Source of the DNA: Gammaproteobacteria bacterium HGW-Gammaproteobacteria-11
GTDB lineage: Bacteria; Pseudomonadota; Gammaproteobacteria; Pseudomonadales; Pseudomonadaceae
DNA: 64,000 nt
Direction of reading: 5' to 3'
Assembly (NCBI GenBank): GCA_002840055.1
Contig: PGZJ01000003.1
Location: 186,001 to 250,000 of the forward strand
Shown: positions 41,508-61,323 of the stretch, piece after piece
How the letters are laid out: every line of letters starts with the position of its first letter
Numbering within the stretch: the stretch's first letter is position 1
Made by a program: the position numbers and the translations under genes
The notes under the pieces: generated by a model
Database searches by the model: none
Told to the model about the DNA's origin: nothing
What the model saw: only the letters and a program-made list of their open reading frames with translations

Positions 41508-42818
41508 ATGAACAAAACCCATCTCGCCAGTGCCGTGCTGGTCAGCATTCTGGCCAGCACAGCATCCAGCCTGGTGCAGGCCAACCAAGGATTTATCGAA
41601 GGAAGCAAAGCCAACCTTGGACTGCGCAACTTCTATTTCAACCAGGACAACCGCAGCGGTTCAGCCGCACCCAGAGCCGAGGAATGGGGCCAGGGCTTTG
41701 TGCTGGACTTTCAGTCAGGCTACAGCACAGGCCCGGTGGGGCTGGGCTTCGACGCGCTTGGGCAAGCCGGCATTCGCCTGGATTCAGGCGGACGTACCGA
41801 CAAGGCCGGGCGCAGCCGCAGCCCTGGCGCGCTCTTTCCCCTTGATGATGACAACAGCGCTGTCAGCAGCTTTGGTCGGTTCGATCTAACAGCCAAGGCC
41901 CGCATTGCCAATACTGAATTACGTATTGGTACTCTGCGGCCACGTCTGCCGATCCTGGTCCAAAACGACGGCCGCCTTCTTCCGCAGACTTTCCGTGGCG
42001 GTCATCTGACCTCCAGCGATATCAGCGGCCTGACCCTGCATCTGGGTGAAATTCGTGAGGCCAGCGGGCGCGCATCTTCTGACTATGAGGATTTGCGGAT
42101 TGCCGGCGGCACTGAACGCGTTGATCAATTCCGCTTTGCCGGTGGCGATTACAAGCTGACAGATAACCTGACCACCAGCTACTACTTTGCCGAACTGGAA
42201 GACTACTACCGTCAGCACTATCTCGGCGCCGTCCATACCACAAGCCTTGGCAATGGCAAGCTCAGTACTGATCTGCGTTATTTCGACAGCAACGCGCATG
42301 GTGCCAATAAGCGTCAGGAAGCCGGTTTTGGCGCCAGTGGATTCCAGAATGATGGCAAGGTCGATAACACTGCTGCCAGTGCGCTCTTTACCTTCAGCCA
42401 AAGCGGCCATGCGTTCGGCTTGGGTTATCAGCACCTAAGTGGCAGCAGCAACTTCCCCTTCGTCAATAACGGCGACGGTGCCACTGCTTACCTGATTACC
42501 GACTCGCAAATCGGCAAGTTCCAGCGCGCCGGCGAGCGCACCTGGCTTGCCCGCTACGGTTATGACTTTGCCAATGCAGGTGTACCGGGCCTGCGCGCCA
42601 ATCTGACGTACCTGCGTGGTGACAATGTGGATGCCGCCGTCTCAGGCAAGGATTCAGAGTGGGAACGTGATGTCCGTGTGGATTACACCATCCAGGACGG
42701 GCCTTTGAAAAATCTTGGTTTCTCCTTGCGCAGCGCGGCATTGCGCAGCAGCGTAGCTAACCAGCGGGATATAGATCAGACCCGCTTTATCATCAGCTAT
42801 AACGTCGTTTTGCTGTAA
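41508..42818 (+). CDS. OprD-family outer-membrane porin
   Basis: The 436-residue precursor has a signal peptide (residues 1-26, cleavage around VQANQ) and starts the barrel with GFIEGSKANLGLRNFYFNQD, the characteristic OprD/OprE opening. The C-terminus ends in an alternating strand (RFIISYNVVLL). OprD porins admit specific small anions or amino acids; with sulfonate transport genes downstream, entry of organosulfur anions is a fair inference. A strong terminator follows. The A/T-rich upstream block suggests sulfur control shared with lsfA. Confidence 0.88.
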   Translation: MNKTHLASAVLVSILASTASSLVQANQGFIEGSKANLGLRNFYFNQDNRSGSAAPRAEEWGQGFVLDFQSGYSTGPVGLGFDALGQAGIRLDSGGRTDKAGRSRSPGALFPLDDDNSAVSSFGRFDLTAKARIANTELRIGTLRPRLPILVQNDGRLLPQTFRGGHLTSSDISGLTLHLGEIREASGRASSDYEDLRIAGGTERVDQFRFAGGDYKLTDNLTTSYYFAELEDYYRQHYLGAVHTTSLGNGKLSTDLRYFDSNAHGANKRQEAGFGASGFQNDGKVDNTAASALFTFSQSGHAFGLGYQHLSGSSNFPFVNNGDGATAYLITDSQIGKFQRAGERTWLARYGYDFANAGVPGLRANLTYLRGDNVDAAVSGKDSEWERDVRVDYTIQDGPLKNLGFSLRSAALRSSVANQRDIDQTRFIISYNVVLL

Positions 42819-42987: not shown

Positions 42988-43569
42988 ATGAACAACCAAC
43001 TGACACGCTATCTGATCGTTCCCGGCTGGCAGGGTTCCGGTGCAGACCATTGGCAGAGTTACTGGGAGCAGCTACTACCCAACACACAAAGAGTCGAACA
43101 GGATGATTGGCTGTATCCTGACCGCCAGAACTGGACTGCCCGGCTGGACCAATACATCAAATCAAGCAGCGCACCCGTTGTGCTCATAGGTCATAGCCTG
43201 GGCTGCGTCACAATAGCTTGCTGGGCGAACCAAGCGAGTCCGTCTTCTCGCAAGCAGGTCAGGGGCGCGTTGCTGGTTGCTCCCGCAGACGTCGAACGGC
43301 CGAACTGCCCGGGCGCGTTACGAGGATTTGCGCCAATACCGCTGACAGCTCTGCCCTTCCCCAGTCTACTGGTAGGCTCAGACAATGACCGTGCTGCCAG
43401 CGCTGATCGGGCCATCGCAATGGGCCAGGCCTGGGGCAGTGAGATGGTGCTGCTGAGCGGCTGTGGGCATATCAATGCCGCGGCAGGGTTTCATCATTGG
43501 GAGGCCGGGTTTGCCTATCTTTACCGGCTACAGGGCACGATTGAACAGAGTGCGAGAAAGCACGGATAA
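42988..43569 (+). CDS. RBBP9/YdeN-type serine hydrolase
   Basis: The 193-residue alpha/beta-hydrolase begins YLIVPGWQGSGADHWQSYW, carries the nucleophile elbow GHSLGC near residue 69, and has the Asp in LLVGSDNDRAASA and the His in GCGHINAAAG, so the triad is complete. RBBP9/YdeN proteins are small esterases of poorly known substrate. It starts an operon with the truncated activator-like gene 12 bp downstream. Release of sulfur from an ester is possible but not shown. Confidence 0.8.
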   Translation: MNNQLTRYLIVPGWQGSGADHWQSYWEQLLPNTQRVEQDDWLYPDRQNWTARLDQYIKSSSAPVVLIGHSLGCVTIACWANQASPSSRKQVRGALLVAPADVERPNCPGALRGFAPIPLTALPFPSLLVGSDNDRAASADRAIAMGQAWGSEMVLLSGCGHINAAAGFHHWEAGFAYLYRLQGTIEQSARKHG

Positions 43570-43581: not shown

Positions 43582-44406
43582 ATGAACACGCCCTACACAC
43601 CACCCAGCGCGCTACTGAGCTTTGCTGATGCCGATCGCAGCCCCCTGAGCATCCGTGCCAAAGCGCTGGTATTCGTCGATCCACGATCGAAAAAACTGCA
43701 TGACGAACTGGAGTATCTGGCTAAAACCAGTCTTGCGATTCTGGTAGGCGGTGAAACCGGATCGGGCAAGGAGCTGCTGGCCAGGCAGATTCATCGGACT
43801 AGTCAGAGACCCGGCCTATTCGTGGCTGTCAATTGTGGCGCGCTGCTCAATGGTCAAGCCGAAGCAGAACTCTTTGGCTACGCACCCAATAAACCTTTGA
43901 GCAGTCCGGCAGGGCGCACCGGCTGGTATGGCTCAGCCAATGGCGGTACGCTTTACCTAGATGAGATTGGCGATCTGCCATTGAGTTTGCAAGACAAGCT
44001 GCTGACCGCTCTTCAGACCCATGAGATACACCGGGTAGGTGCCAAGACAGCTACGCCAGTCGATGTCAGATTGGTGGCCGCCACCAGTATCAATCTGGAA
44101 AGAGCAGTGCGCGCAGGCAACTTCAATGCGCATTTGTATGAATACATCAATGAAGGCTTTCTCGAACTGCCGCCGCTGCGGCAACGGCCAGCAGACATTC
44201 TACCTTTGGCTGAATACTTTCTTGCCATGTACGCACAACGCCTGAGTCTGAATGTACCCCGCTTTAGTGATGAAGCTCAGCAGAGACTGGAGCACCACCG
44301 CTGGACGGGCAATACCCGCGAGCTGGAAAACGTTATCCACTTTGCATTACTTGTCTGCCGTAATGGCGTAATCGAACCGGAAGATCTGAATCTTCCTGCA
44401 GCCTGA
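43582..44406 (+). CDS. Truncated, degenerate sigma-54 activator-like AAA+ protein
   Basis: The 274-residue protein is a sigma-54 activator AAA+ domain with neither receiver domain nor C-terminal Fis helix-turn-helix; it ends just after the AAA+ lid. Walker A GETGSGKE (57-64), Walker B LYLDE (124-128) and sensor II WTGNTREL are intact. The sigma-54-contacting loop is NKPLSS (103-108) where GAFTGA belongs, and the two arginine-finger positions of the FREDLYYRL motif are N182 and Y188 (FNAHLYEYI). It should bind nucleotide but not drive open-complex formation in the usual way. It is coupled to a hydrolase in the sulfur island; SfnR is the nearest functional relative I can suggest, so no symbol is given. 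Confidence 0.85.
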   Translation: MNTPYTPPSALLSFADADRSPLSIRAKALVFVDPRSKKLHDELEYLAKTSLAILVGGETGSGKELLARQIHRTSQRPGLFVAVNCGALLNGQAEAELFGYAPNKPLSSPAGRTGWYGSANGGTLYLDEIGDLPLSLQDKLLTALQTHEIHRVGAKTATPVDVRLVAATSINLERAVRAGNFNAHLYEYINEGFLELPPLRQRPADILPLAEYFLAMYAQRLSLNVPRFSDEAQQRLEHHRWTGNTRELENVIHFALLVCRNGVIEPEDLNLPAA

Positions 44407-44434: not shown

Positions 44435-45622
44435 TCACATCCACCCTATAGCACGCTTGATCTTCAAACCAAAGAGCACCCCAGCCAAGCAAAAAAAGCC
44501 GAATACCCAGCCTGACGCCGCACCGGCCATGATGCCTGACAGCAGCGTACCCACGGTACAGCCCAGCGCCAGCATGCCGCCAAAACCCATCAGCACACCG
44601 CCTGCCAGGTTGCGCCAAATCTGCTCCAGAGAGGGTCGCTTGGGCTGAAAGTCGCCAGCAACCAGCGCTGAGGCCCAGGCCGCCAGTACCAGTCCAATAA
44701 CAAACACACCATTGTTCGACAGCAGTGCCTGCTTGACTGCCGTTGCACAGCCGGAAAAGCCATCCAGGCCGTAAAGACGACTGGGCAGCCAGCCTGCTGC
44801 GTCCGCAGCAGTGCGTGACAGACTACCCAACTCCGCAGTCACTCCCAAGGGTGCCACACGTAGGTAACTGACTACCGCCAATGCGCCAATCAGCACACCG
44901 CCAACATAGGGTGGCCATCGTCGGCGCCAGATCGCTTGGCCAGGCGTAGTTTGAGGATCTGGCTCTGCGGGCCGAGCATGGTGCAGCAAACCCCAGGCCA
45001 GTGCCGCCAACAAAGCCAGCTGCAGGAGCAGTGACCCGCCGTAACCCAGATAAGCGGGCAACCAGATACTTGGTGCGTCCTGAACCGCGTACAGATACAG
45101 AGTGTTCCAACTGAGAAACCCGATGATGAACCCCAGCAGCACACCCACGAGCGCAAAAGGCGAAGCCAAAGCACCTTCTCCAAGTCGATACAAATGGGCG
45201 CTGATGCAGGAACCAGAGAGGGCCATACCCATACCGAATATCGTCGCACCAAAAGCCAGTATCGAACTGACCGGCCCGACATGCGCATCCGGTGGCAAAC
45301 GACCACTGAAAGCATCAGGCACAAAATTGCCGAACACGGCATGATAGCCCAGCGTGCCAACCGCCAAAGCTGCCAGCAAACCGAGCAGGCCACGCGCATC
45401 CCGGCGCTCGACAAAATCACGAGTGATGCAGAAAAAACAGAAGCGTGAGCGTTGCAGCAACACACCAAAGGCAGCACCTGCCAGTAAAGAAAAGCTCAGT
45501 GTCCGGCCAACAGGCGTTGGCGTGGACAGCACCCAGGCCCAGAGCCACAGCCCGGCGGTAATCAGCAGGGCCAGCCCCAGGGCTGGAACGGAAGGTCGAT
45601 CAGCCATGACCTTGTCAATCAT
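44435..45622 (-). CDS. YeeE/YedE-family sulfur-compound transporter (TsuA-like)
   Basis: The 395-residue polytopic protein of the YeeE/YedE family (about ten helices) has the conserved membrane cysteines in RSRFCFFC, LSGSCISAHLYRLGEGAL and LALGCTVGTLLSG, which in the thiosulfate importer TsuA pass the substrate along. It probably imports thiosulfate or a related sulfane-sulfur compound. The ATG at 45622 follows AAGGGGG; an upstream open extension runs through the terminator of the rhodanese gene and is rejected. It is probably read from its own promoter. Confidence 0.8.
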   Translation of the reverse strand: MIDKVMADRPSVPALGLALLITAGLWLWAWVLSTPTPVGRTLSFSLLAGAAFGVLLQRSRFCFFCITRDFVERRDARGLLGLLAALAVGTLGYHAVFGNFVPDAFSGRLPPDAHVGPVSSILAFGATIFGMGMALSGSCISAHLYRLGEGALASPFALVGVLLGFIIGFLSWNTLYLYAVQDAPSIWLPAYLGYGGSLLLQLALLAALAWGLLHHARPAEPDPQTTPGQAIWRRRWPPYVGGVLIGALAVVSYLRVAPLGVTAELGSLSRTAADAAGWLPSRLYGLDGFSGCATAVKQALLSNNGVFVIGLVLAAWASALVAGDFQPKRPSLEQIWRNLAGGVLMGFGGMLALGCTVGTLLSGIMAGAASGWVFGFFCLAGVLFGLKIKRAIGWM

Positions 45623-45663
45623 CGAAACCCCCTTGAGACGAGAACGCGCAGAAGCAGCTAAAT

Positions 45664-45686
45664 AAAAACCCCGGCCTGAGCCGGGG
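45664..45686 (-). terminator. Terminator of the rhodanese gene
   Basis: On the minus strand GCCGGGG's partner stem CCCCGGC-TCAG-GCCGGGG is followed by TTTTT, 27 bp after the rhodanese stop and 41 bp before the YeeE/YedE start. Confidence 0.8.
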
Positions 45687-45712
45687 CTGATATTGCTGCC
45701 GGTCATGGCGAA

Positions 45713-46642
45713 TTACTTGCCACCCCAGACAGTGCCCGCGACGTTCACTACGGGTACACCTACTGCATTGCCGTACTCGGTCCAGGAGCCATCATAGTTA
45801 CGCACGTCGTAACCGAGAATCTTGCTCAATGCGAACCAGGTGTGACTGGAGCGTTCGCCAATCCGGCAATAGGTAATGATCGGCTCGCTGCCATCGATAC
45901 CTACTGCGGCGTAGACCTCTCTCAACTCCTCAGCCGACTTGAAGGTACCGTCAGCCGCAACAGCCTGCCCCCATGGCACATTCACCGCACCGGGAATGTG
46001 GCCAGCCCGAACCGCCAGCTCCTGAACGCCTTCGGGCGCAAAAATCCGGCCGTTGAACTCGTCTGGCGAACGGATATCAACCAGTCGGGCATTACCACGG
46101 CCCTCAGCAACAGCAACCACGTCAACAAAACGTGCTCGCAAATCCTCATTACGTCCTGCCAGGCTAATATCACCCTGCGAATAGGTTGTTGCCCGGTTGC
46201 TCAGACCTCGATTCTCGGCTTCCCACTTAGCCCGCCCGCCGTCCAGCAGCTTGACGTTCTGAACGCCATAGACATCAAAAATCCAGGCACCCCAGGCGGC
46301 AAACCAGTTGTTGGTATCGCCGTACAGAATAGTGGTGGTATCAGAGGAAATACCGGCCCCACGCAACAGCGCCTGAAAATTCTCCTGTGACGCGATATCA
46401 CGCTTGACCGGATCAACCAGATCCGTGTGCCAGACAAAGTTGACTGCGCCGGGTATATGTCCGCGCTCGAACTGGCCCGGGTTGACGCTCACTTCAACAA
46501 TTCTGATTGAAGGATTGTTCAGGTTATTTTCCAGCCATTCGGTACTGACCAATACATCGCTGGCAGCGGCCAGCGCAGCGCTAGTCGGCAACAGGGCGCT
46601 TACAGCCAACAGACCGGCGCCGATGAAGGTTTTGAAATTCAT
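45713..46642 (-). CDS. Periplasmic two-domain rhodanese (sulfurtransferase)
   Basis: The 309-residue precursor has a signal peptide (residues 1-26, ...LAAASDV) and two rhodanese domains. The second holds the active-site loop CRIGERS after ITY, a variant of the CRxGx[RT] loop; the first has no catalytic cysteine, the usual arrangement for thiosulfate or mercaptopyruvate sulfurtransferases. AGGAG lies before the ATG. Located in the periplasm and next to a YeeE/YedE transporter, it may prepare or accept sulfane sulfur. An A/T-rich 101-bp promoter region precedes it. Confidence 0.88.
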   Translation of the reverse strand: MNFKTFIGAGLLAVSALLPTSAALAAASDVLVSTEWLENNLNNPSIRIVEVSVNPGQFERGHIPGAVNFVWHTDLVDPVKRDIASQENFQALLRGAGISSDTTTILYGDTNNWFAAWGAWIFDVYGVQNVKLLDGGRAKWEAENRGLSNRATTYSQGDISLAGRNEDLRARFVDVVAVAEGRGNARLVDIRSPDEFNGRIFAPEGVQELAVRAGHIPGAVNVPWGQAVAADGTFKSAEELREVYAAVGIDGSEPIITYCRIGERSSHTWFALSKILGYDVRNYDGSWTEYGNAVGVPVVNVAGTVWGGK

Positions 46643-46743
46643 GTCGATACTCCTGTGGAATGCTTTAAATAGATTAGTTCTGCAATAAAACGAAATTAGA
46701 TTCTTTACTCATATTCATATAACGCGTTGCTCTCTCCCTTTGG

Positions 46744-47976
46744 TTAGCTGTACACCGATGCCACTGGGGGCTCCCCACTCAGCAGCCAATGGCCAATATC
46801 CTTGACCTTGTAGTCCAACGGATCATGTAGCGTGTGCACGCGCACGTTGCGCCAGAATCGGTCGAAGCCATAACTGGCAGACGTGGCGCGAGCGCCCATG
46901 GCCTCGAAAATCTGTGCCGTAATCGCCAGCGCTGCCCGCGCGGAAACCACCTTGGCCTGAGCAATCGCCAGTGCTACCTCGCCACGTTGCGCCGCAGTTA
47001 CTGCCGGGTTTTCCCAGGCCTTCTGCAATAACTGAGCAGCCTCGTCAGCCAGCAGTTGGGCAGACCTGAAGCGCAGCCAGAGGTCGCCATAACGTTGCTG
47101 CATAAAAGGATCGTCAGTGGCCTTGCTCACCCCCGAAGCGGGCCAGGCACGCGTTTGCTCTCGGGTATAGTCGAGCGCAGCGCTAAGCGCGCCTTGGGCA
47201 TTGCCCAGATAGATCTGCACCAGAATCAACTGTGACAGACAGGTACGCAGGGTGCCGCGGGGCGCGCCCGGTCCCGCCTCAAGCAGATCGCGGCTGTCGA
47301 CAAAAACCGATTCGAAATGCACCGTGCCGCTGTCAGTCTGGCGCTGACCGAAGCCGTCCCAGTCTTCCTTGACCAGCAGGCCATCGCGCCTGCCCGGCAC
47401 CAACGCAAAGACCCGATCATCCGCGCGCGCACTACGCGGCGCACTGACAACCAGCGCATCGGCACCGAGCGCCCCTGAGCAGAACGACTTGCTGCCATTG
47501 AGCTCGTAATGCTCATCCTTTCTGACCAGTTGCAGACCCGTGTCCCGGCCATTGGTGGCGTTGCCCCAGAACCAGCTTTCTTCGATGGTACGGCCGAGCC
47601 AATAGCGCTGTTGCCAGGCGTCGCCAAACAACAGAATGGTGCCGACCTGCAGATGGTGAAAAGCAAACAGGTGAGCCAGCGAACTGTCCACCGCAGCCAG
47701 ATAGCGGGTTATGGCATAAATAGCTGGCCATGGCGTCTCACGCCCACCGAACTGCCTTGGTACCGACAATCCAAGTAGACCGCTGCTGCGGATCAGTTCC
47801 TTTTCCGCCAATGCACTGCCACCTTCACGATCGCGCTGCACGGCTGACGCGGCTAGTTGCCGGGCCAGCAACAGAACTGCCGGATTCAGATCAGCAAAAT
47901 CCACCGAAAATACCCGGGAATCAAGGACGCTGGACACGTCCTCTGGGTACTGGCTGGCAACGGACAAATCGGCCAT
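46744..47976 (-). CDS. SfnB/DszC-type acyl-CoA-dehydrogenase-fold flavoprotein
   Basis: The 410-residue protein with acyl-CoA dehydrogenase fold belongs to the FMNH2-using monooxygenase branch (DszC, SfnB) rather than beta-oxidation: it lacks the catalytic Glu context of dehydrogenases, and its neighbours are sulfur genes. Helical N-terminus, central beta domain (ESWFWGNATNGRDTGLQL; YELNGSKSFCSGALGADALV) and C-terminal bundle (ARATSASYGFDRFWRNVRVH) are complete. It starts 1 bp after the stop of a sulfonate-binding-protein gene, so the two are coupled. The substrate is probably an organosulfur compound. Confidence 0.82.
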   Translation of the reverse strand: MADLSVASQYPEDVSSVLDSRVFSVDFADLNPAVLLLARQLAASAVQRDREGGSALAEKELIRSSGLLGLSVPRQFGGRETPWPAIYAITRYLAAVDSSLAHLFAFHHLQVGTILLFGDAWQQRYWLGRTIEESWFWGNATNGRDTGLQLVRKDEHYELNGSKSFCSGALGADALVVSAPRSARADDRVFALVPGRRDGLLVKEDWDGFGQRQTDSGTVHFESVFVDSRDLLEAGPGAPRGTLRTCLSQLILVQIYLGNAQGALSAALDYTREQTRAWPASGVSKATDDPFMQQRYGDLWLRFRSAQLLADEAAQLLQKAWENPAVTAAQRGEVALAIAQAKVVSARAALAITAQIFEAMGARATSASYGFDRFWRNVRVHTLHDPLDYKVKDIGHWLLSGEPPVASVYS

Positions 47977-47977
47977 T

Positions 47978-48952
47978 TCAGTTCTCCGGAGCCCAGATAT
48001 TGACGTCGGTTGCGTTGACCGTCACCGGAAGTAAACCTTCCTGGTGAAAGGTGTCGGCAATTTTCTGCTGCTCGGCCAAGCTCTCGGGCTGAACCAGTCT
48101 GACCTCATAACTGCGCCGCTGGTTAGCCGCCTCCACCGTGGCGACATCCAATCCGCCCCACAACGGCCCCAAGATAGTGGCGGCCTCTCTGGGGTTGGCA
48201 CGCAGCCATTCACCACTTTTTTGCAGCTCGTTGAAAAGGGTTGCCAGAATTGCCGGGTTGGCCTCGGCATAGCTGTCGGTACTCAGGTAGTAACGCTGGT
48301 AATCGGCAAGTCCTTCGCCGTCCGCCAGGGTCCGCGTCTCGAGCTGTCGCTGAACGCTGGTCAGGAAGGGTTCCCAGGTTACCCAGGCATCCACATTGCC
48401 ATTCTCGAAGGCGGCACGACCATCCGCTGGTGTCAGGTAGGAAGGACGAATATCCGCAAAGCTCAGGCCAGCCTGCTTCAAGGCCTGAATCAACAGGTAA
48501 TGACTACCGGCTGCCTTGGTTACAGCAACCCGTTTACCCTTGAGATCGGCAACACTTTGGATGGCGGAACTCGATGGTACAACGATGGCCTGCGCTGAAG
48601 GCGATGGGGCCTCCTGCGCCACATAGGTCAGCCTGGCACCGGCAGCCTGGGCAAATACCGGCACGGTATCGGCCACATCCGCGGAGAAATCGACATTACC
48701 CACGTTAAGCGCTTCAAGCAGCGGCAAGCCACTGGGAAATTCATGCCAGGTAACGCTTACGCCTTGCTGGGCTAACACCGACTCAAGTGTGCCCTGAGTT
48801 TTCAGCAGGGTGATCAAGGTAGATGATTTCTGGTAACCAATGCGCAGCGTGCTATCGGCAAGCACGGAAGCGCTAAAGGTGGCAGCCGCAACAGCCAACA
48901 GCGAAACACCGATGGAGCGGCCAATCAGCCGTCTCAGGGAAGGTCTTTTCAT
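47978..48952 (-). CDS. SsuA-type sulfonate-binding periplasmic protein (orphan)
   Basis: The 324-residue precursor has a basic signal peptide (MKRPSLRRLIGRSIG..., cleavage near VLADS) and the SsuA-type motifs STLRIGYQKSSTL, EFPSGLPLLEALNVGNVDF and YLTPADGRAAFENGNVDAWV. It is a paralogue of SsuA at 54848: same length and the same motif order, with clear changes in the ligand-proximal region (SADVADTVPV against GTTGETPPV). No permease or ATPase is next to it, so it would use one of the two ABC transporters downstream. It is coupled to the SfnB-like gene. Confidence 0.86.
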   Translation of the reverse strand: MKRPSLRRLIGRSIGVSLLAVAAATFSASVLADSTLRIGYQKSSTLITLLKTQGTLESVLAQQGVSVTWHEFPSGLPLLEALNVGNVDFSADVADTVPVFAQAAGARLTYVAQEAPSPSAQAIVVPSSSAIQSVADLKGKRVAVTKAAGSHYLLIQALKQAGLSFADIRPSYLTPADGRAAFENGNVDAWVTWEPFLTSVQRQLETRTLADGEGLADYQRYYLSTDSYAEANPAILATLFNELQKSGEWLRANPREAATILGPLWGGLDVATVEAANQRRSYEVRLVQPESLAEQQKIADTFHQEGLLPVTVNATDVNIWAPEN

Positions 48953-49150
48953 GACAGGGTCTCTGTACAGGATTGTATGGAACCGTCTCTGCACAGAGCC
49001 GGATCGGAGTAAAGGCAGCCACACTGCCAAGGATCCGGTCGTCCGGTACAACAAAGCTAAACGATCTAAAAAATAAAATATAAATACTTTTTTGATATTA
49101 GCTTATGGCTTTGTTTTCTGAAATCACGTCCTGTTACTTATTCTAAAAAC

Positions 49151-49180
49151 AAATAAGCAAATTCTTATTTATTCTTTTTA
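49151..49180. promoter_or_regulatory. Candidate sulfur-regulon element upstream of lsfA
   Basis: AAATAAG-N6-CTTATTT (49151-49170) overlaps TTTATTCTTTTTA (49168-49180), identical to the 13-mer at 41381. It lies 66 bp before lsfA, in an A/T-rich divergent region also serving the binding-protein gene at 48952. Confidence 0.5.
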
Positions 49181-49245
49181 GTCGATTTCACAGCAGCGCA
49201 TAGTAAGCGTCAATCCTAAACACGCATGACTTCAGGAGCAAAACC

Positions 49246-49884
49246 ATGACCATTCGACTCGGCGACATCGCCCCCGACTTTCAACAGGACTCCAGCGAGG
49301 GCCGCATCCAATTTCATGAATGGCTGGGCGACAGTTGGGGCGTGCTGTTCTCGCACCCCGCCGACTTCACCCCAGTCTGCACGACCGAGCTCGGCTTCAC
49401 TGCCAAACTGAAAGAGGAGTTCTCCGCGCGCGGGGTAAAAGCTATCGCGTTATCGGTGGACCCTGTGGACTCACACATAAAGTGGATCGACGACATCAAC
49501 GAAACACAGAACACCCGTGTCAACTTTCCGATCATTGCCGATCACGATCGCAAGGTCTCAGACCTGTACGACCTGATCCACCCCAAGGCCAACGACACCC
49601 TGACCGTACGCTCGCTGTTTGTGATCGACCCGAACAAGAAGGTGCGACTGACCATCACCTATCCCGCCAGTACCGGACGCAACTTCCACGAGATTCTGCG
49701 AGTAATCGATTCGTTGCAACTGACCGACAACTACAAGGTCGCCACCCCGGCCAATTGGCAGCATGGAGACGAGGTCGTCATTGTGCCTTCGCTGAAGGAT
49801 GAAGATGAAATCAAACAACGTTTTCCCAAGGGATACCGAGCTGTCAGGCCTTATCTGCGCCTGACGCCGCAACCCAACAGGTAA
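49246..49884 (+). CDS. lsfA: 1-Cys peroxiredoxin induced by sulfate starvation
   Basis: The 212-residue Prx6-type peroxidase has the peroxidatic Cys45 in DFTPVCTTEL and the Prx6 C-terminal domain (YPASTGRNFHEILRVIDSLQ). LsfA is known in Pseudomonas as a sulfate-starvation-induced peroxidase and stands upstream of the ssu region, as here. It protects against peroxides, useful while reduced flavins are used for sulfonate cleavage. A 13-mer shared with other sulfur units lies upstream; a UUCG hairpin follows. Confidence 0.94.
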   Translation: MTIRLGDIAPDFQQDSSEGRIQFHEWLGDSWGVLFSHPADFTPVCTTELGFTAKLKEEFSARGVKAIALSVDPVDSHIKWIDDINETQNTRVNFPIIADHDRKVSDLYDLIHPKANDTLTVRSLFVIDPNKKVRLTITYPASTGRNFHEILRVIDSLQLTDNYKVATPANWQHGDEVVIVPSLKDEDEIKQRFPKGYRAVRPYLRLTPQPNR

Positions 49885-49945
49885 GTGAATCAGTTTTCGG
49901 CAGGCTTTAAGGCCGCCGGACTGATACCAGCAAGCAAAACAGAAC

Positions 49946-49963
49946 ATCCGGCTTCGGCCGGAT
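49946..49963 (+). terminator. UUCG-tetraloop hairpin after lsfA
   Basis: ATCCGGC-TTCG-GCCGGAT is a perfect 7-bp stem with the very stable TTCG loop, 61 bp after the stop. Lacking a T-run, it may act as processing or pause site before the transporter operon. Confidence 0.5.
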
Positions 49964-50030
49964 ACCTGACTTGACCGCCAACGGAAAAGAAGGAATCGCC
50001 ATGCATCAATAACCTATTAAGGAGCACTAC

Positions 50031-51026
50031 ATGAAAGCACCCGTCTGGCGCAAACACCTTGCCGCCCTTTTACTGACCCTGCCCACCGCAGCTCTGGCCA
50101 GTGAACCCGATGAAGTCCGTCTGGATTATGCCTACTACGCCCCCACCAGCCTGATTCTGAAAGATCAAGGCATTCTGGAACGGCGTCTGGCTGATAGAAA
50201 TATCAGCGTACGCTGGGTACAAAGCCTGGGTAGCAACAGAGCCCTGGAGTACCTGAACTCCAACAGCATTGACTTTGGCTCAACCGCTGGGCTGGCTTCA
50301 GTACTGAGCAGAGCCAACGGTAGCCCGGTCAAAGTCATCTATGTCGCCAGCCGTCCCGAGTGGACCGCCCTGGTAGTACCACAGGGGTCACCGATCCAGA
50401 ATGTGGCTGATCTGAGGGGCAAAAAAATCGCAGCAACCAAGGGAACCGATCCCTATCTGTTTTTACTGCGCACACTGAACGAAGCCGGGCTGGACAAGGA
50501 TGATGTAGAGATCATTCACCTGCAGCATCCGGATGGCCGAGTAGCACTGGAGCAGGGCCGCGTGGACGCCTGGGCCGGGCTGGATCCCCATATGGCTGCC
50601 AGTGAGATACAGGCCGGTTCTCGCCTGCTGTCACGTAATCTGGACTTCAACAGCTATGGAGTACTGAATGTCAGTGATACCTTTGCCCGCGAGCAACCAG
50701 AACTGATCAAAGAGGTCATCGCTGCCTACGAGGAAGCTCGCCAATGGGCATTGGCCCACCCGGAGGACACCGCTGCGCTCCTTGCAAAAGAGGCTGGATT
50801 ACCACTGGAAGTGGCCCGCTTGCAACTTTCACGTACCGACTTCAGCAATCCACTGCCTGGCGCAGAACATGTTGCTGCGCTCAAGGCAGCTGCCAGCATT
50901 CTGGTGGAAGAAGAGCTGGTGCGCCGGGGTACTGACGTGGCTGCAGCCGTTGATCAGTTGATCAGCCCGCAGTTGGCAGCTGAGGTGATTGGCACAGGCC
51001 ACCTGGCCAAGGCGAGCGGAGAGTAA
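50031..51026 (+). CDS. ABC transporter periplasmic binding protein for sulfonate/sulfate-ester type substrate
   Basis: The 331-residue precursor has a signal peptide (about residues 1-23, ...AALASEP) and the NMT1/SsuA-like fold with SIDFGSTAGLASVL, VIYVASRPEWTALVVPQGS and VADLRGKKIAATKGTDPYLFL. It lacks the GYQK motif of SsuA and so is a different subgroup. It is followed at 4 bp by its permease and then the ATPase, the same order as in the P. aeruginosa region between lsfA and ssu. Sulfate esters (AtsR-like) are one possibility. Confidence 0.85.
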   Translation: MKAPVWRKHLAALLLTLPTAALASEPDEVRLDYAYYAPTSLILKDQGILERRLADRNISVRWVQSLGSNRALEYLNSNSIDFGSTAGLASVLSRANGSPVKVIYVASRPEWTALVVPQGSPIQNVADLRGKKIAATKGTDPYLFLLRTLNEAGLDKDDVEIIHLQHPDGRVALEQGRVDAWAGLDPHMAASEIQAGSRLLSRNLDFNSYGVLNVSDTFAREQPELIKEVIAAYEEARQWALAHPEDTAALLAKEAGLPLEVARLQLSRTDFSNPLPGAEHVAALKAAASILVEEELVRRGTDVAAAVDQLISPQLAAEVIGTGHLAKASGE

Positions 51027-51030
51027 GGCA

Positions 51031-51858
51031 ATGACCACCCAGACTCACACTTTGAGCCGCATCACCGACAGACTGCCGAGTCTGATCCGGCCATGGCAAC
51101 TCAACTGGCGCGGCTGGGTGGTGCCTTTGGTGCTGCTGTTTGCCCTGGAGATCATTGTTCGCTTTGGCTGGCTTCCCGCCCACCAGATGCCTGCACCCAG
51201 CAGCATAGCTATCACGCTCTACGACTTGGCGCACGGCAACCTCTGGTCCCACACCCTGGCCAGCCTGGCCAGGGTTGGTAGTGGCTTTGCTATTGGTGCG
51301 GGGCTGGCTATCTTCATCGGTACCTGGGTGGGGCTGAGCCAGCGAGCCGAGGCGTACCTGGAACCGACGTTTCAGGGCCTGCGGGCCATCCCCAGCCTGG
51401 CTTGGGTACCGCTCCTGCTGCTTTGGCTTGGCATTGATGAGACGCCCAAGATCACCTTGATTGCACTCGGCGCCTTTTTTCCGGTGTACCTGTCTTTGGT
51501 TGCCGGGATCCGCAATATTGACCGCAAACTGATCGAGGTGGGCAAGCTCTACCGCCTGCCACCCTTCGAACTGATACGCCGCATTCTGTTGCCTGCGGCG
51601 CTGCCTAATCTGTTTACCGGCCTGCGCGGTGCTTTGAGCCTAGCCTGGATGTTTCTGGTCGCAGCCGAATTGATAGCCGCAACGAAAGGGCTTGGCTATC
51701 TATTGACCGATGGGCGGGAAACCTCACGCCCGGATATCGTTATCGCCGCCATTCTGGTGCTGGCGGTACTCGGCAAGCTGTCTGACAGCATTCTCAAACG
51801 TCTCGAAGATCGGGCACTGCGCTGGCGTGACAACTTTCACGGAGAGGACGCAACATGA
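51031..51858 (+). CDS. ABC transporter permease, SsuC-like
   Basis: The 275-residue inner-membrane protein has six hydrophobic segments and the EAA loop that docks the ATPase (EVGKLYRLPPFELIRRILLP). The N-terminal 35 residues are soluble (MTTQTHTLSRITDRLPSLIR). AAGG precedes the ATG at 51031. Its last 4 bp overlap the ATPase gene (ATGA), giving coupled translation. Confidence 0.88.
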   Translation: MTTQTHTLSRITDRLPSLIRPWQLNWRGWVVPLVLLFALEIIVRFGWLPAHQMPAPSSIAITLYDLAHGNLWSHTLASLARVGSGFAIGAGLAIFIGTWVGLSQRAEAYLEPTFQGLRAIPSLAWVPLLLLWLGIDETPKITLIALGAFFPVYLSLVAGIRNIDRKLIEVGKLYRLPPFELIRRILLPAALPNLFTGLRGALSLAWMFLVAAELIAATKGLGYLLTDGRETSRPDIVIAAILVLAVLGKLSDSILKRLEDRALRWRDNFHGEDAT

Positions 51859-52589
51859 GCGCGCTGCTGAAACTCATCGACATTCACAAGGCCTACGCCG
51901 GGCTGCAGATTCTCGACAAGGTTAACTTGTCCCTGGCGCCCGGAGAAATCATCAGCCTGATTGGTCCCAGCGGCTGCGGCAAGAGCACCTTGTTGCGGAT
52001 CGCCGCTGGGCTGGATGAACAGTTTACGGGTCAACTTGAGCGCAACCCCCTGCTCGACTTTGGCCGCAGTAGCGGCATCGGTGTGGTGTTCCAGGAACCG
52101 CGCCTGCTACCGTGGCTGGACGTCGCCGACAATATCGCCTTTGCCGACGGCTGGAAGGCTGACCAGGTCTGGGTGGAACAACTGCTCAAGGATGTGGGTT
52201 TGCAAGGGCGTGGTGATGCCCTGCCGAAGGAACTGTCAGGCGGGATGGCACAACGTGCCGCGATAGCCCGTGGTCTGTACGGCAAGCCTCAGGTGCTGCT
52301 GCTCGACGAGCCCTTCAGTGCGGTAGACGCCTTTACGCGCATGAAGCTGCAGGACCTGGTGGCGAAGCTGGCGGTGCACTACGACATCAGCATTCTTCTG
52401 GTTACCCATGATCTGGACGAGGCGTTCTACCTCAGTGACCGTGTAGTTGTCCTCGGCGGTGGGCAGCCCAGCCGTATCACCCAAGAGTTTCACGTACCAC
52501 TGACCCGACCCCGCGACCGACGTTCTGCCGAACTGGCCTATCTGCGGGGTGAGGCACTGACTGCGCTATACCAGGATCACGCACTCTGA
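51855..52589 (+). CDS. ABC transporter ATPase, SsuB-like
   Basis: The 244-residue ATPase has Walker A GPSGCGKST, Q-loop VVFQEPRLLPW, the signature LSGGMAQRAAIARGL, Walker B VLLLDEPFSAVD and switch His in LVTHDLDEAFYLSD; all are intact. It completes the transporter begun at 50031. A stem-loop shared with the convergent chrA gene follows. Confidence 0.92.
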   Translation: MSALLKLIDIHKAYAGLQILDKVNLSLAPGEIISLIGPSGCGKSTLLRIAAGLDEQFTGQLERNPLLDFGRSSGIGVVFQEPRLLPWLDVADNIAFADGWKADQVWVEQLLKDVGLQGRGDALPKELSGGMAQRAAIARGLYGKPQVLLLDEPFSAVDAFTRMKLQDLVAKLAVHYDISILLVTHDLDEAFYLSDRVVVLGGGQPSRITQEFHVPLTRPRDRRSAELAYLRGEALTALYQDHAL

Positions 52590-52606
52590 CCCTTCTTTGC
52601 TAAAAC

Positions 52607-52636
52607 GCCCGCCAACGACCAACGGCCATGGCGGGC
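52607..52636. terminator. Stem-loop between convergent ATPase and chrA genes
   Basis: GCCCGCCA (52607-52614) pairs with TGGCGGGC (52629-52636). On the minus strand it is followed by GTTTTAG, so it mainly suits chrA termination. Confidence 0.55.
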
Positions 52637-52648
52637 ATGCAAGCGTTC

Positions 52649-54010
52649 TTAGATCAACCACTGCGCCAACAAGCCAGCCAAAGCACAAAGCCCCAGCGTC
52701 TTCATCACCGACAATTTCAAACCAAACAGCAGCACCGCAGCACCGAGGGCAATGACAGCCGAAGGCCAGTCCAGCGCAGCATCAAAGCCTTCTGGCCAGA
52801 GCACGTGATAGCCAAAAAACAACGCCAGATTGAGGATCACGCCCACCACTGCGGCAGTAATCCCGGTCAGCGGCGCAGTAAAGCCCAGTTGGCCGTGGGT
52901 GGACTCCACCAGCGGGCCACCGCCGAGGATAAACAGGAAAGACGGCAGGAAGGTGAACCAGGTGACCAGCGTGGCCGCTACTGCGCCAGCCAGAAACGCC
53001 TGTTCCGGGCCAAACACTTCCAATACATAGCCGCCAACAAAGGCCACGAAAGCCACCACCATGATCAGCGGACCCGGCGTGGTTTCGCCCAGTGCCAGAC
53101 CATCAATCATGTGCGCCGGGGTTACCCAGCCATAACCACTGACGGCACCCTGGTAGACATAGGGCAAAACCGCGTAGGCACCACCAAAGGTGAGCAAGGC
53201 AGCTTTGGTAAAAAACCAGGCCATTTGCGTTAGCGTGCCGTCCCAGCCAAATAGCCCATATAGCGCCAGCATGGGCACCAGCCACAGCACTGCCCCGACT
53301 ACCACCAGGCGCGTCAACCGGGGCCAGGCAAAGCGCGCATGTTCCGGCGTTGGCGTATCGTCATCAATAACGGCTGCGCCATAGGATTTTTCCGTCGCCG
53401 CATGGCCGCCACCGGGCTGAAAGTACTGTGGCGCGTAGCGTCCACCCAGATAACCGGCCAAAGCGGCGCACAGCACAATCAGCGGGAAAGGCAAACGGAA
53501 TACAAAAATGCCGATAAAGGCGGCTGCCGCGATAGCCCACAACCAGGGGTTCTTCAGCGTTCTACTGCCGATGCGCCAGGCCGCCTGGAACACGATGGCC
53601 GTCACCGCGGGCTTGATGCCGTAGAAAATACCCGCCACCAGCGGCACATCGCCGTACGCGATATAGATCCAGGCCAGGGCAACCAGGATGAACAACGACG
53701 GCAAGACAAACAACACGCCAGCAACAATCCCGCCCCAGGTGCGGTGCAACAGCCAGCCGATATAAATGGCCAGCTGCTGCGCCTCAGGGCCTGGCAGCAA
53801 CATGCAGTAGTTCAGCGCATGCAGAAAACGCCGCTCGGAAATCCAGCGACGTTTCTCGACCAGTTCCTGATGCATGATCGCAATCTGCCCGGCCGGGCCA
53901 CCAAAGCTGATCAATCCCAGCTTCAGCCAGAACAGAAACGCCTGGTAAAAGGGCACGGGTGGCATCAGAGCGCCCTCTTCAACCTCGGCCAAACCCGGTT
54001 TGTCGTTCAT
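52649..54010 (-). CDS. chrA: Chromate efflux transporter, long-chain CHR family
   Basis: The 453-residue protein has two homologous CHR halves: GLISFGGPAGQIAIMHQELV then LNYCMLLPGPEAQQLAIYIG in the first, and ALLTFGGAYAVLPYV then LALGETTPGPLIMVVAFVAF in the second. It exports chromate, a toxic sulfate analogue that enters by sulfate uptake systems. The ATG at 54010 follows AAGGAA. It interrupts the stretch between the first ABC transporter and ssuE, on the opposite strand, and shares the ssuE upstream region. Confidence 0.9.
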   Translation of the reverse strand: MNDKPGLAEVEEGALMPPVPFYQAFLFWLKLGLISFGGPAGQIAIMHQELVEKRRWISERRFLHALNYCMLLPGPEAQQLAIYIGWLLHRTWGGIVAGVLFVLPSLFILVALAWIYIAYGDVPLVAGIFYGIKPAVTAIVFQAAWRIGSRTLKNPWLWAIAAAAFIGIFVFRLPFPLIVLCAALAGYLGGRYAPQYFQPGGGHAATEKSYGAAVIDDDTPTPEHARFAWPRLTRLVVVGAVLWLVPMLALYGLFGWDGTLTQMAWFFTKAALLTFGGAYAVLPYVYQGAVSGYGWVTPAHMIDGLALGETTPGPLIMVVAFVAFVGGYVLEVFGPEQAFLAGAVAATLVTWFTFLPSFLFILGGGPLVESTHGQLGFTAPLTGITAAVVGVILNLALFFGYHVLWPEGFDAALDWPSAVIALGAAVLLFGLKLSVMKTLGLCALAGLLAQWLI

Positions 54011-54068
54011 CAAGCTGTTCCTTGAATAGTGGATAGGCCAAGTAAATCACATTCCCCTATATGCTTTC

Positions 54069-54088
54069 TAAGAATATTAAAATTCTTA
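54069..54088. promoter_or_regulatory. Palindrome in the chrA-ssuE divergent region
   Basis: TAAGAAT-ATTAAA-ATTCTTA is a perfect 7-bp inverted repeat of the T-N11-A type bound by LysR regulators, 91 bp before ssuE and 59 bp from chrA. GGAATAAGAAT lies close by. CysB is a candidate. Confidence 0.5.
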
Positions 54089-54178
54089 AATGTGATTTAG
54101 AGGAATAAGAATACTTTGCTAGCTTAGCGCAACTGGCAGCAGATCGCTGCTCCCACTCATTGCTACAAGGAAGACCCC

Positions 54179-54763
54179 ATGCTGGTTGTGTCCATCGCGG
54201 GCAGTCCCAATCTGAAATCCCGCTCCGGGATTCTGCTGGATTATGCCCGCGGCAAATTACAGAAACAGGGCGTGGAGGTGGCACAGTTTCATATTCGCCA
54301 TTTCAATGCCGAGGATCTGCTCTATGCACGCTTTGACAGCCCACAGGTAGTGGAGCTGGCGGAGCAGGTAAACCGCGCCGACGGCCTGCTGATTGCCACG
54401 CCGGTATACAAGGCCTCGTTTTCCGGCGCCCTCAAGGTGCTGCTGGATCTGCTGCCAGAACGGGCTCTGGCGCACAAGGTGGTACTGCCTATCGCCACCG
54501 GTGGCAGCCACGCCCATATGCTGGCAGTGGATTACGCACTCAAGCCGGTATTGGGCGCGCTCAAGGCCCAGGAAATGCTGCAAGGCGTATTCGCCGAGGA
54601 CAGCCAGATTCAGTACGGCGAACCGGCGGTGCTCGAGGCGAATCTTAAAGCGCGACTGGATGAAGCCGTGGAGCACTTTGTCAGCGCCCTGGCACGCAGA
54701 CCCGCGCCGATAGATCCAAAAACCCTTAACGATCGCTTGATCAACGCTCGCTGGAGCATCTGA
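54179..54763 (+). CDS. ssuE: NADPH-dependent FMN reductase of alkanesulfonate cleavage
   Basis: The 194-residue flavodoxin-like reductase supplies FMNH2 to SsuD. It starts [21 protein letters not shown] with the flavin phosphate loop (SPNLKSRS), and has the [24 protein letters not shown] segment typical of SsuE. AAGGAAG lies before the ATG. It opens the ssuEADCBF operon. A second FMN reductase (msuE) is encoded at 61375, closer to a different oxygenase. Confidence 0.93.
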
Positions 54764-54847
54764 ACCCGCCCTTTAGGGCAATAACCCGCCTTACTCTCCC
54801 GCCAACGGGTCAGCAGGTTTCCAACACTCAAAGCAAAGGAAGAGACC

Positions 54848-55813
54848 ATGAGCTCAACTACTTTGCGCCGGGGATTGGCAGCCGTTCTGGCCGCCACAAT
54901 TTCCCTAGGCGCTATTACCCACGCCGCTGCCGACACCCTGCGTATCGGTTATCAGAAATATGGCACCCTGGTGCTGCTGCGCGCCGACGGCGGACTTGAT
55001 CGTCGCCTCGCCGAGCGCGGTATCGAGGTTCGCTGGACCGAGTTTCCCGCTGGTCCGCAACTGCTAGAAGGCCTGAATGTCGGCTCGGTCGACTTCGGCA
55101 CTACCGGTGAAACCCCGCCGGTGTTCGCCCAGGCTGCCGGTGCTGACCTGCTTTACGTCGCCCACGAGCCACCCGCGCCGCTGAGCGAGGCGATTCTGGT
55201 GCCCAAGGATTCTCCACTGCAAAGCGTTGCCGATCTGAGGGGCAAGAAAGTCGCCTTCAACAAAGGCTCCAACGTTCACTATCTGCTGGTACGCGCACTG
55301 GAAGAAGCCGGACTGAGCATTACTGATGTAACGCCGATCTACCTGGCTCCGGCTGACGCCCGAGCCGCGTTCGAACGTGGCAGCGTAGATGCCTGGGTTA
55401 TCTGGGACCCCTTCCAGGCCGCCGCCGAACAGCAGCTTGAGGCCCGTGAACTGGCTAACGGTACAGGCCTGGTCAATAACCATCAATTTTATCTCTCGAC
55501 CCGCGATTACGCTGACAACAACCCTGAAGTGATACAGATACTGGTGGAAGAAATTTCCCGCATCGGTGACTGGACATTGGCCAATGCAGATGCGGCCGCC
55601 GAGCAGGTTGCGCCTTTGCTCGGGCTCAGCCATGAGATCACCAAGACCGCGCTCGAGCGCCAAGGCTATGGCACGCGCCTGATTTCACCCGAGGTAGTGG
55701 AAGCACAGCAAAAAATTGCTGACACCTTCTTTGAACTGAATTTGATCCCGAAAGAACTGACCATCAGTGAAGTGATCTGGACAGCACCTGCCAACCTGGC
55801 CACAGCACCCTGA
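54848..55813 (+). CDS. ssuA: Aliphatic sulfonate-binding periplasmic protein
   Basis: The 321-residue precursor has a signal peptide (residues 1-28, ...HAAADTL) and the motifs RIGYQKYGTLVLLRADGG, EFPAGPQLLEGLNVGSVDFG and YLAPADARAAFERGSVDAWV. It delivers sulfonates to SsuBC. AGGAAG precedes the ATG. An intercistronic hairpin follows at 55829, which may raise SsuA levels relative to downstream genes. Confidence 0.94.
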   Translation: MSSTTLRRGLAAVLAATISLGAITHAAADTLRIGYQKYGTLVLLRADGGLDRRLAERGIEVRWTEFPAGPQLLEGLNVGSVDFGTTGETPPVFAQAAGADLLYVAHEPPAPLSEAILVPKDSPLQSVADLRGKKVAFNKGSNVHYLLVRALEEAGLSITDVTPIYLAPADARAAFERGSVDAWVIWDPFQAAAEQQLEARELANGTGLVNNHQFYLSTRDYADNNPEVIQILVEEISRIGDWTLANADAAAEQVAPLLGLSHEITKTALERQGYGTRLISPEVVEAQQKIADTFFELNLIPKELTISEVIWTAPANLATAP

Positions 55814-55828
55814 TTTTTTGGAACACAC

Positions 55829-55850
55829 ACCTGCCCAGCCTTGGGCAGGT
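55829..55850 (+). other. Intercistronic hairpin between ssuA and ssuD
   Basis: ACCTGCCCA-GCCT-TGGGCAGGT is a perfect 9-bp stem 15 bp after the ssuA stop, without a T-run. Such stems after binding-protein genes often block 3' exonucleases and favour the upstream product. Confidence 0.55.
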
Positions 55851-55885
55851 CACCCCCTTGCATGACACATGAAGGAGACCACTCC

Positions 55886-57052
55886 ATGTCACTAAAAGAA
55901 AACGCGTCGCTGAACATTTTCTGGTTCCTGCCCACCCATGGCGATGGGCGTTACCTGGGTACGTCGTTCGGCGCCCGCGCAGTCGACCACAGCTACCTGC
56001 AACAGATCGCCCAGGCCGCTGACAAGCTTGGCTTTGGCGGCGTACTGATCCCGACCGGACGCTCCTGCGAAGACTCGTGGCTGGTGGCTGCATCACTGAT
56101 CCCAGTTACCCAGCGGCTGAAGTTTCTGGTCGCGCTACGCCCCGGGATCATTTCCCCGACCGTGGCTGCACGCCAGGCCTCAACCCTTGATCGTCTCTCC
56201 AATGGCAGGGCGCTGTTCAATCTGGTTACCGGTGGTGACCCGGACGAGCTGGCTGGCGACGGCCTGAACCTCACCCACGAAGAGCGTTACGAAGCCTCGG
56301 TCGAGTTCACCCGAATCTGGCGCCGCGTACTGGAAGGCGAGAACGTCGATTACGACGGCAAACACATTCAGGTCAAGGGTGCGAAGCTCTTGTATCCACC
56401 TGTGCAACAGCCGCGTCCGCCGCTGTACTTCGGTGGCTCATCGGAAGCCGCCCAGGATCTGGCCGCAGAGCAGGTCGAGATGTACCTGACTTGGGGTGAG
56501 CCGCCGGAGGCAGTACGCGAGAAAATCGAACAGGTCCGCGAGAAGGCCGCCAAGCTCGGCCGCACGGTGCGCTTTGGTATCCGCCTGCATGTGATCGTAC
56601 GGGAAACCAACGAAGAGGCCTGGCAGGCAGCGGACAAACTGATTGCCCATGTGGATGAGGACACGATTGCCAGGGCCCAAGCCTCCCTCGCCCGTTTCGA
56701 CTCGGTCGGTCAGCAGCGTATGGCGGCCCTGCACGGTGGCAGCAAGGACAACCTTGAAGTCAGTCCGAACCTCTGGGCCGGCGTCGGTCTGGTAAGGGGT
56801 GGTGCAGGTACCGCACTGGTCGGTGATGGCCCCACAGTAGCCGCGCGGGTACAGGAGTATGCCGACCTGGGCATCGACACCTTTATCTTCTCCGGGTATC
56901 CGCATCTGGAAGAGTCCTACCGCGTCGCCGAGCTGCTGTTTCCACATCTGAATATTGCCCTGCCCGAACAACCGGCGGGCGCCCAGTACGTCAGCCCCTT
57001 CGGTGAAATGGTCGCTAATGACATTCTGCCCAAAGCTGCGGCACAGAGCTGA
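55886..57052 (+). CDS. ssuD: FMNH2-dependent alkanesulfonate monooxygenase
   Basis: This luciferase-fold enzyme splits alkanesulfonates into aldehyde and sulfite using FMNH2 from SsuE. The 388-residue protein begins [20 protein letters not shown] and has [27 protein letters not shown]-like strand [20 protein letters not shown] and the mobile-loop region [16 protein letters not shown]. Length is close to E. coli SsuD (381). AAGGAG lies before the ATG at 55886. Confidence 0.95.
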
Positions 57053-57059
57053 GGGACGA

Positions 57060-57848
57060 ATGATGAGCAAACAGACCCAATGGCTCGAACGCCTGGCACC
57101 CTTCGTGCTGCCGGTACTGCTGCTGAGCATCTGGCAACTGTCGGTCAGCACTGGCTGGTTATCCAGCCGCATTCTGCCAGCACCCAGCGCAGTGGTAGCT
57201 GCTGGCTGGGGCTTACTGTCCAGTGGCGAGATCTGGCAACACCTGGCGATCAGCAGCTGGCGGGCCGTAACCGGACTAGCGATCGGGGGTGGCCTCGGCT
57301 TGGTCCTGGGCTTCATCTCGGGGCTCTCACGCTGGGGCGAACGCTTTCTCGACAGCTCGGTGCAGATGATCCGCAACATCCCCCATCTGGCGCTGATTCC
57401 ACTGGTGATACTGTGGTTCGGTATCGATGAGTCGGCAAAAATATTTCTGGTCGCATTGGGTAGCCTGTTCCCGATCTACCTGAACACCTATCACGGCATC
57501 CGCAACGTTGACCGTGGCCTGGTGGAGATGTCGCGCAGCTATGGTCTGTCCGGCTTTGCCCTGTTCTGGCAGGTCATCCTCCCCGGTGCCCTGCCCTCGA
57601 TCCTGGTCGGCCTGCGCTTTGCCCTGGGCTTCATGTGGCTAACGCTGATCGTCGCCGAGACCATTTCCGCCAGCTCCGGTATTGGCTACCTGGCAATGAA
57701 CGCACGCGAGTTTCTGCAAACCGATGTCGTTGTTCTGGCCATTGTGCTCTATGCCCTGCTGGGCAAACTGGCCGACAGTGGCGCACGGCTGCTTGAACGT
57801 ATCTGGCTGCGCTGGCATCCGGCTTACCAAAAGGAGGGTCGAGCATGA
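57060..57848 (+). CDS. ssuC: Aliphatic sulfonate ABC permease
   Basis: The 262-residue membrane protein has six hydrophobic segments and the ATPase-docking EAA loop ([20 protein letters not shown]). It starts at one of two adjacent ATGs after GAGGG, 7 bp past the ssuD stop, and overlaps ssuB by 4 bp (ATGA). It forms the sulfonate importer with SsuA and SsuB. Confidence 0.93.
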
Positions 57849-58651: not shown

Positions 58652-58689
58652 TTCAAGCTCGTTAACCGAAAACCAGAAGGAAGTGCATC

Positions 58690-58905: not shown

Positions 58906-58915
58906 AGCCTGTCAG

Positions 58916-58950
58916 GCCAGTGCAGCGGGTTAGTTCAGCGTCGCACTGGC
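58916..58950. repeat. Inverted repeat at the ssuF / IS-remnant junction
   Basis: GCCAGTGC (58916-58923) pairs with GCACTGGC (58943-58950). It straddles the end of the truncated transposase frame, so it may be the old ssuF terminator into which the remnant is joined, or part of the breakpoint. Confidence 0.5.
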
Positions 58951-60985: not shown

Positions 60986-61050
60986 GGTATGGCTCCTTCA
61001 GTTAGCAGTAAGACGAGCAGACACTTTGGGCTGCTGTTGATTGCTAATAC

Positions 61051-61066
61051 TGCAAAGGCCGTGCCT
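61051..61066 (-). promoter_or_regulatory. Sigma-54 promoter for the SfnB-like gene
   Basis: The minus strand reads AGGCACGGCCTTTGCA, matching TGGCACGnnnnTTGCW at all fixed positions except the first. The start would be near 61040, about 55 bp before the ATG. Confidence 0.7.
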
Positions 61067-61307: not shown

Positions 61308-61323
61308 TGGCACGGTTACTGCT
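61308..61323 (+). promoter_or_regulatory. Sigma-54 promoter of msuE-sfnG
   Basis: TGGCACGGTTACTGCT matches the -24/-12 consensus with one change (C for the first T of TTGC). The start would be near 61335, 40 bp before msuE. Confidence 0.72.

Follow-up and report, generated by a model that had tools for sequence, protein, structure and literature searches.

A Pseudomonadaceae clade of sigma-54 activator relatives that has kept the nucleotide pocket and lost GAFTGA, the arginine fingers and the DNA-binding domain

TyrR, DhaR, HupR and VpsR are DNA-binding regulators, and VpsR is a GAFTGA-defective relative of the sigma-54 enhancer-binding proteins (bEBPs). FleT of Rhodobacter sphaeroides is described as the sole bEBP without both the N-terminal and the DNA-binding domains (PMC7175178), and works as a hetero-oligomer with FleQ (PMC9542535, PMC7175178, PMC7277832). 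Hetero-oligomers of interacting paralogous bEBPs are also formed by HrpR-HrpS and the VnfA paralogues, the partners being described as activators (PMC9542535). SfnR, a short activator, has a sulfur role known from the literature.

Here we describe protein T, encoded in a 64,000-nucleotide stretch (the window) of a Pseudomonadaceae genome. T shares with FleT the lack of both outer domains, and in addition has no loop-1 and finger residues, the comparison with FleT being one of domain composition. Like TyrR, DhaR and HupR (PMC3162934), it combines an AAA+ domain of the bEBP type with a sigma-54 contact loop that is defective; unlike these three and VpsR, it has no DNA-binding domain and shows a broader loss of the hydrolysis relay. 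Unlike the partners in the HrpR-HrpS and VnfA systems, T looks unable to activate. It resembles the SfnR-type activators of the same genome (L002, L003, L004) in having an AAA+ core without a long N-terminal sensor domain, but it lacks their GAFTGA, arginine fingers, sensor-I Asn and C-terminal domain and belongs to a separate clade. No study of this clade was found in the literature on SfnR, bEBPs and Pseudomonas sulfur genes, and the clade is apparently uncharacterised in the literature searched, although the defective-GAFTGA supplement of PMC3162934 could include it.

Domain composition and conserved residues of T

The T gene (43582..44406, + strand, as are all features of T and the hydrolase below) encodes a sigma-54 activator-derived AAA+ protein of 274 aa that consists of the AAA+ core and lid only, with neither an N-terminal nor a DNA-binding domain, the core-only composition of FleT. 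The core matches the sigma-54 AAA+ domain PF00158 with 153 bits (cut-off 20.2) and the lid matches PF25601 with 73 bits (cut-off 27). Fold comparison also places T with the bEBP AAA+ domain, VpsR being among the structural matches. The HTH model of Pfam lacks the power to settle the state of the C-terminal domain (two of three SfnR-type proteins scored under its cut-off, and it was unlisted for the third), so length and alignment were used instead. The stretch between the landmark in the last helix of the lid and the stop has 21 residues in the T of the window, a median of 54 in the clade, and at least 101 in 42 full-length relatives (a maximum tail length of 268 was left out, as it is too long to be real and probably comes from rows without the landmark motif). 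In many T proteins of other genera (L094-L124) the lid is followed by a further 30-45 residues or so, a tail which is absent from the T of the window and aligns weakly with the stretch preceding the lost HTH.

Residues were counted in 77 T sequences and 51 full-length relatives, one full-length row (L052) having been dropped beforehand. The 77 sequences are not a random draw, as the best-scoring and weakest-scoring matches and one genus were picked; 24 of them come from one P. aeruginosa-like genus (g8), which weighs on the counts. The nucleotide pocket is retained. Walker A (residues 56-64, 43747..43773) has K63 and E64 in all 77 sequences, Walker B (TLYLDE, residues 123-128, 43948..43965) has its Glu in 77 and its Asp in 76, and the sensor-II Arg246 (44317..44319) is present in 77/77. 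The elements that would pass the nucleotide state on to sigma-54 are replaced. Loop 1 is the hexapeptide NKPLSS (residues 103-108, 43888..43905) in place of GAFTGA, a motif found in 0/77 T sequences versus 47/51 full-length relatives, the other four of which carry variants of one or two residues. Arginine finger 1, occupied by N182 (44125..44127), is Arg in none of the T sequences and in 51/51 relatives; finger 2, occupied by Y188 (44143..44145; Tyr in 75/77), is Arg in 1/77 and 51/51, respectively, so that both fingers are missing in 76/77. The sensor-I Asn is replaced by S169 (44086..44088), Ser in 77/77 T sequences, versus Asn in 50/51 relatives, and G117 (43930..43932) is Gly in 77/77 where the relatives have Glu in 51/51. 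By counting, residue 117 corresponds to E97 of PspF. The switch Asn is retained in 27/77. Four T sequences have the loops GAYSGS (twice), GAYSGA and GSYSGS, made up of substitutions that, according to PMC3162934, are singly tolerated in some working bEBPs.

The selective loss of GAFTGA, both arginine fingers and the Fis domain, with Walker A, Walker B and sensor II kept, which the preliminary description had reported for the single protein, was thus found to hold clade-wide in 77 members. Full-length GAFTGA-bearing homologues, the finding that it had named as contradicting its claim, were looked for and made up 0/77 clade members. Moreover, 105 sites are near-invariant across the 77 sequences, and the new residues G117, Y125, S169 and Y188 are themselves nearly invariant, a fixation that drift would not give.

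Distribution, origin and selection

Matches to T at E <= 1e-84 were found in 263 of 398 Pseudomonadaceae genomes, and all 77 matches examined by sequence are T; full-length relatives reach 4e-82 at best, and T copies of lower score may miss this cut-off. In the genus of the window, a close copy (E <= 1e-85) is present in 4/37 genomes. An order-level draw of 244 genomes gave nine genomes with a match at 1e-80, all of them in Pseudomonadaceae and none outside the family, and a class-level draw of 274 genomes gave at 1e-78 the T of the window only. In a contig scan P. neustonica provided the sole T among the best 80 matches, which is no evidence of rarity, as the patterns came from the window sequence alone and only those best 80 were considered. 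T is dispensable, as 135/398 genomes have no match and one genome of the window's genus has a fragment alone: a truncated T (L206, 10449-10739; residues 3-99 only) lies there behind the hydrolase and looks like a loss.

A tree was built by a quick method from 28 T, 29 SfnR-type and 10 other activator sequences. In it, a branch of SH-aLRT 100 separates T from the rest, T itself being on a long branch. It stands outside the SfnR-type group as a separate clade, adjoining full-length SfnR-like proteins that include two paralogues from the window's genome (joint support 84); 23 of the 64 inner branches of this tree are open, and one SfnR-type row with a very long branch is misplaced in the outgroup. 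The window's genome encodes three full-length SfnR-like proteins (L002, L003, L004), with which the AAA+ core of T is 48-52% identical.

Taking a match at E <= 1e-105 as a close SfnR orthologue, 163 of the 398 genomes have both T and SfnR, 100 have T only, 13 SfnR only and 122 neither. T is commoner with SfnR (163/176 SfnR-bearing versus 100/222 SfnR-less genomes; Fisher p 1e-25, uncorrected for relatedness). When SfnR was used as the query in 18 T-bearing genomes, picked since the T-query search had shown no second match in them, no SfnR-type short activator was among the matches listed in 17, the exception being G059. The proposal that T dampens an SfnR-type activator therefore found no support as a general role, since a close SfnR orthologue is missing from 100 of the 263 genomes that carry T; it may still apply where the two occur together.

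Selection was estimated by the Nei-Gojobori method in pairs with dS 0.1-0.5; these pairs are not independent and codon bias is not modelled. The median dN/dS of T was 0.22 (418 pairs); the hydrolase gave 0.14 (59 pairs) and SfnR-type proteins 0.04 (28 pairs). Pooled pN/pS in T was 0.38 for the whole protein. Loop 1 (0.48) and the finger region (0.41) were only slightly higher, and Walker A (0.17), sensor II (0.08) and Walker B (0.07) were much lower. T is thus under purifying selection that is weaker than in SfnR and strongest at the nucleotide pocket; with a dN/dS more than five times the SfnR-type value, the constraint is moderate. The relaxed selection of a decaying gene, which had been named as a further contradicting result, was not seen in the 418 close pairs.

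The adjacent hydrolase and the sulfur-gene surroundings

Upstream of T by 12 bp lies a gene for an RBBP9-like serine hydrolase (42988..43569), matching PF06821 with 209 bits (cut-off 22) and having a likely triad Ser70/Asp134/His161, assigned by motif. The hydrolase is upstream on the same strand in 54/77 T loci, with 16-299 bp between the aligned ends; the triad Ser is present in 54/54 of these hydrolases, and 53 of them also show the Asp and the His, the remaining case being a gap. All 23 loci without an adjacent hydrolase belong to g8, where adjacency holds in 1/24 loci, and all 24 g8 genomes have a hydrolase match somewhere. Among the 398 genomes, 262 have T and hydrolase, one has T alone (G250, 73% complete), 90 have the hydrolase alone and 45 neither, that is, a hydrolase match in 262/263 T-bearing versus 90/135 T-less genomes. 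In the genus of the window T occurs in 4/9 hydrolase-bearing and 0/28 hydrolase-less genomes (Fisher p 0.0019, the genomes being related). The link of the losses to the RBBP9-like gene, which the preliminary description had suggested checking, is strong, with adjacency in 54/77 loci and co-occurrence in 262/263 genomes, but is broken in g8 (1/24).

In seven of eight g8 loci inspected (L191-L196, L198), T lies away from the hydrolase and beside a gene for a MetQ-like lipoprotein, and the genes beyond the latter have the lengths of cioA and cioB. In seven T-less genomes (L199-L204, L208) the hydrolase is near sbp-cysTWA in six (not L201) and near oscA in five; the hydrolase can thus outlive T at the locus.

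In the window the hydrolase-T pair lies between a gene for an OprD-family porin (41508..42818, +) and an island of sulfonate genes, and the OprD-hydrolase-T order is the same in the three other T-bearing members of the genus. The island (44435-63098) is a dense sulfur-scavenging one, with genes for a Sulf_transp (YeeE/TsuA-like) transporter, a rhodanese, an SfnB/DszC-like oxidoreductase, an SsuA-like protein and an LsfA-type 1-Cys peroxiredoxin, and with further SsuA-, SsuB-, SsuC-, SsuD-, SsuE/MsuE-, SfnB- and SfnG-like genes, named by reading.

Neighbourhoods of 20 kb around T were compared in the window and in 20 genomes picked to cover different genera. Neighbour labels were checked by NCBIfam for ten cluster representatives (the OscA representative scored 140 bits against a cut-off of 85); the remaining labels derive from genes of the window, some of them named by reading. 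Of the 21 neighbourhoods, 19 contained one or more sulfate, taurine, sulfonate or MetQ-type genes (L153 and L160 had none), and 13 contained sbp-type genes; these lists, and those for g8 below, are lower bounds, since the gene caller overlooks genes, including the window's own hydrolase. In the eight g8 loci a MetQ-like gene lies at most two genes from T in 8/8, and taurine-type genes are nearby in 5/8. Their gene order is presumably that of PA3931-PA3938, with PA3931 the apparent neighbour and PA3932 the apparent T copy. PA3931 and PA3932 are reported to fall along with sulfur genes upon deletion of PA2504 (PMC8466066).

The preliminary description had also proposed two sigma-54 promoters of the island, at 61051 and 61308, as natural targets of T; both look like sigma-54 promoters, but nothing ties them to T. 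Each sigma-54-like site has one mismatch, one (61052..61066, -) being before an SfnB-like gene (59741-60985, -) and the other (61308..61322, +) before an MsuE-like gene (61375), both genes named by reading. A scan for such sites allowing up to two mismatches found 103 versus 110 expected from shuffles, i.e., no excess; the only suggestive point is the position of the two one-mismatch sites, which share a divergent gap.

Proposed role and alternatives

We hold with moderate confidence, from sequence features, that T is an ATP-gated regulatory subunit that works through protein contacts and would be unable to remodel sigma-54. It would have arisen from the SfnR group of bEBPs by neofunctionalisation. 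In the bEBP model, a relay links the ATP of the neighbour with the contact to sigma-54 (PMC7175178). Having lost loop 1, both fingers, the sensor-I Asn and the equivalent of E97, T would be without this relay, and the intact Walker A, Walker B and sensor II predict ATP binding without firing. As T would run neither the hydrolysis relay nor the loop-1 power stroke, it should not activate a sigma-54 promoter alone, and, without a DNA-binding domain, it would have to act via protein, probably in the sulfur-limitation response. The likeliest contact would be the AAA+ ring of another bEBP, in which a fingerless T could stall or redirect the relay, a contact for which the FleQ-FleT hetero-oligomer is a precedent, the hydrolase being a second candidate; no fusion of T with another protein was seen, although there was no systematic search for one. 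In the suggestion that T remained functional as a nucleotide-binding modulator, the part that stands is the conserved pocket under purifying selection, and the part that does not is SfnR dampening as a general role. T persists without SfnR and the hydrolase link breaks in g8, so neither is a proven partner.

In another reading T and the adjacent hydrolase act together, with T either regulating the hydrolase in an ATP-dependent manner or serving beside it as a subunit of a single sulfur-scavenging function. Adjacency in 54/77 loci, a hydrolase in 262/263 T-bearing versus 90/135 T-less genomes, the genus comparison (4/9 versus 0/28) and the triad Ser kept in 54/54 are all in its favour; however, adjacency holds in 1/24 g8 loci, 90 genomes have the hydrolase without T, the relatedness of the genomes makes these tests non-independent, and neighbouring genes inherited together account for part of the association. 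We consider this unlikely, a strict partnership in particular being weakened by the P. aeruginosa-like genus. That T acts specifically on SfnR-type activators, as their dominant-negative partner, appears quite doubtful: its nearest relatives in the tree are SfnR-type, it occurs in 163/176 SfnR-bearing genomes and the window's genome encodes three full-length SfnR-like proteins, but 100/263 T-bearing genomes have no close SfnR and 17 of the 18 picked genomes no SfnR-type short activator among the matches listed, and SfnR as the sole partner is weakened by such SfnR-less genomes. Regulation of a sigma-70 or other non-sigma-54 process, as by TyrR or VpsR, seems similarly improbable. GAFTGA-defective TyrR, DhaR and HupR are known (PMC3162934), and VpsR is among the structural matches, but T has no DNA-binding domain. 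Relatives of the TyrR and VpsR type keep one.

A functionless, decaying gene would agree with a dN/dS above the SfnR-type value and with the truncated copy in L206. The fixed replacements, the 105 near-invariant sites and the dN/dS of 0.22 argue against decay, as do the matches in 263/398 genomes; we regard this explanation as very improbable, and chance loss or a pseudogene was rejected on the near-invariant sites and dN/dS. Weak sigma-54 activation from solution, without DNA binding, is still harder to credit: bEBPs without a DNA-binding domain exist (PMC7175178), and 4/77 loops carry singly tolerated substitutions, but both fingers are gone in 76/77 and the T of the window has NKPLSS.

The preferred reading, an ATP-gated regulatory subunit, admits a broader form that we put forward tentatively, as one of low probability: T would represent a family of pseudo-activators, fingerless ATP-binding subunits that enter the rings of several bEBPs in pseudomonads, with the output set by sulfur and nucleotide status. 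If so, T would act on sigma-54 transcription in general, as a brake or selector that has escaped notice in model strains. It would extend to bEBPs the principle that catalytically silent relatives regulate active ones, would offer a natural substitution set separating ATP binding from remodelling, and may supply a layer of control that has been missing between CysB, SfnR and the genes for sulfur scavenging. T, present in about two thirds of the Pseudomonadaceae sampled, is annotated as a transcriptional regulator (PA3932 and PP5166, if these are the copies), yet it seems capable neither of activating sigma-54 promoters nor of binding DNA. From gene order, PP5166 is presumably the T orthologue; it is listed as 'Fis family transcriptional regulator' in a transposon-insertion table.
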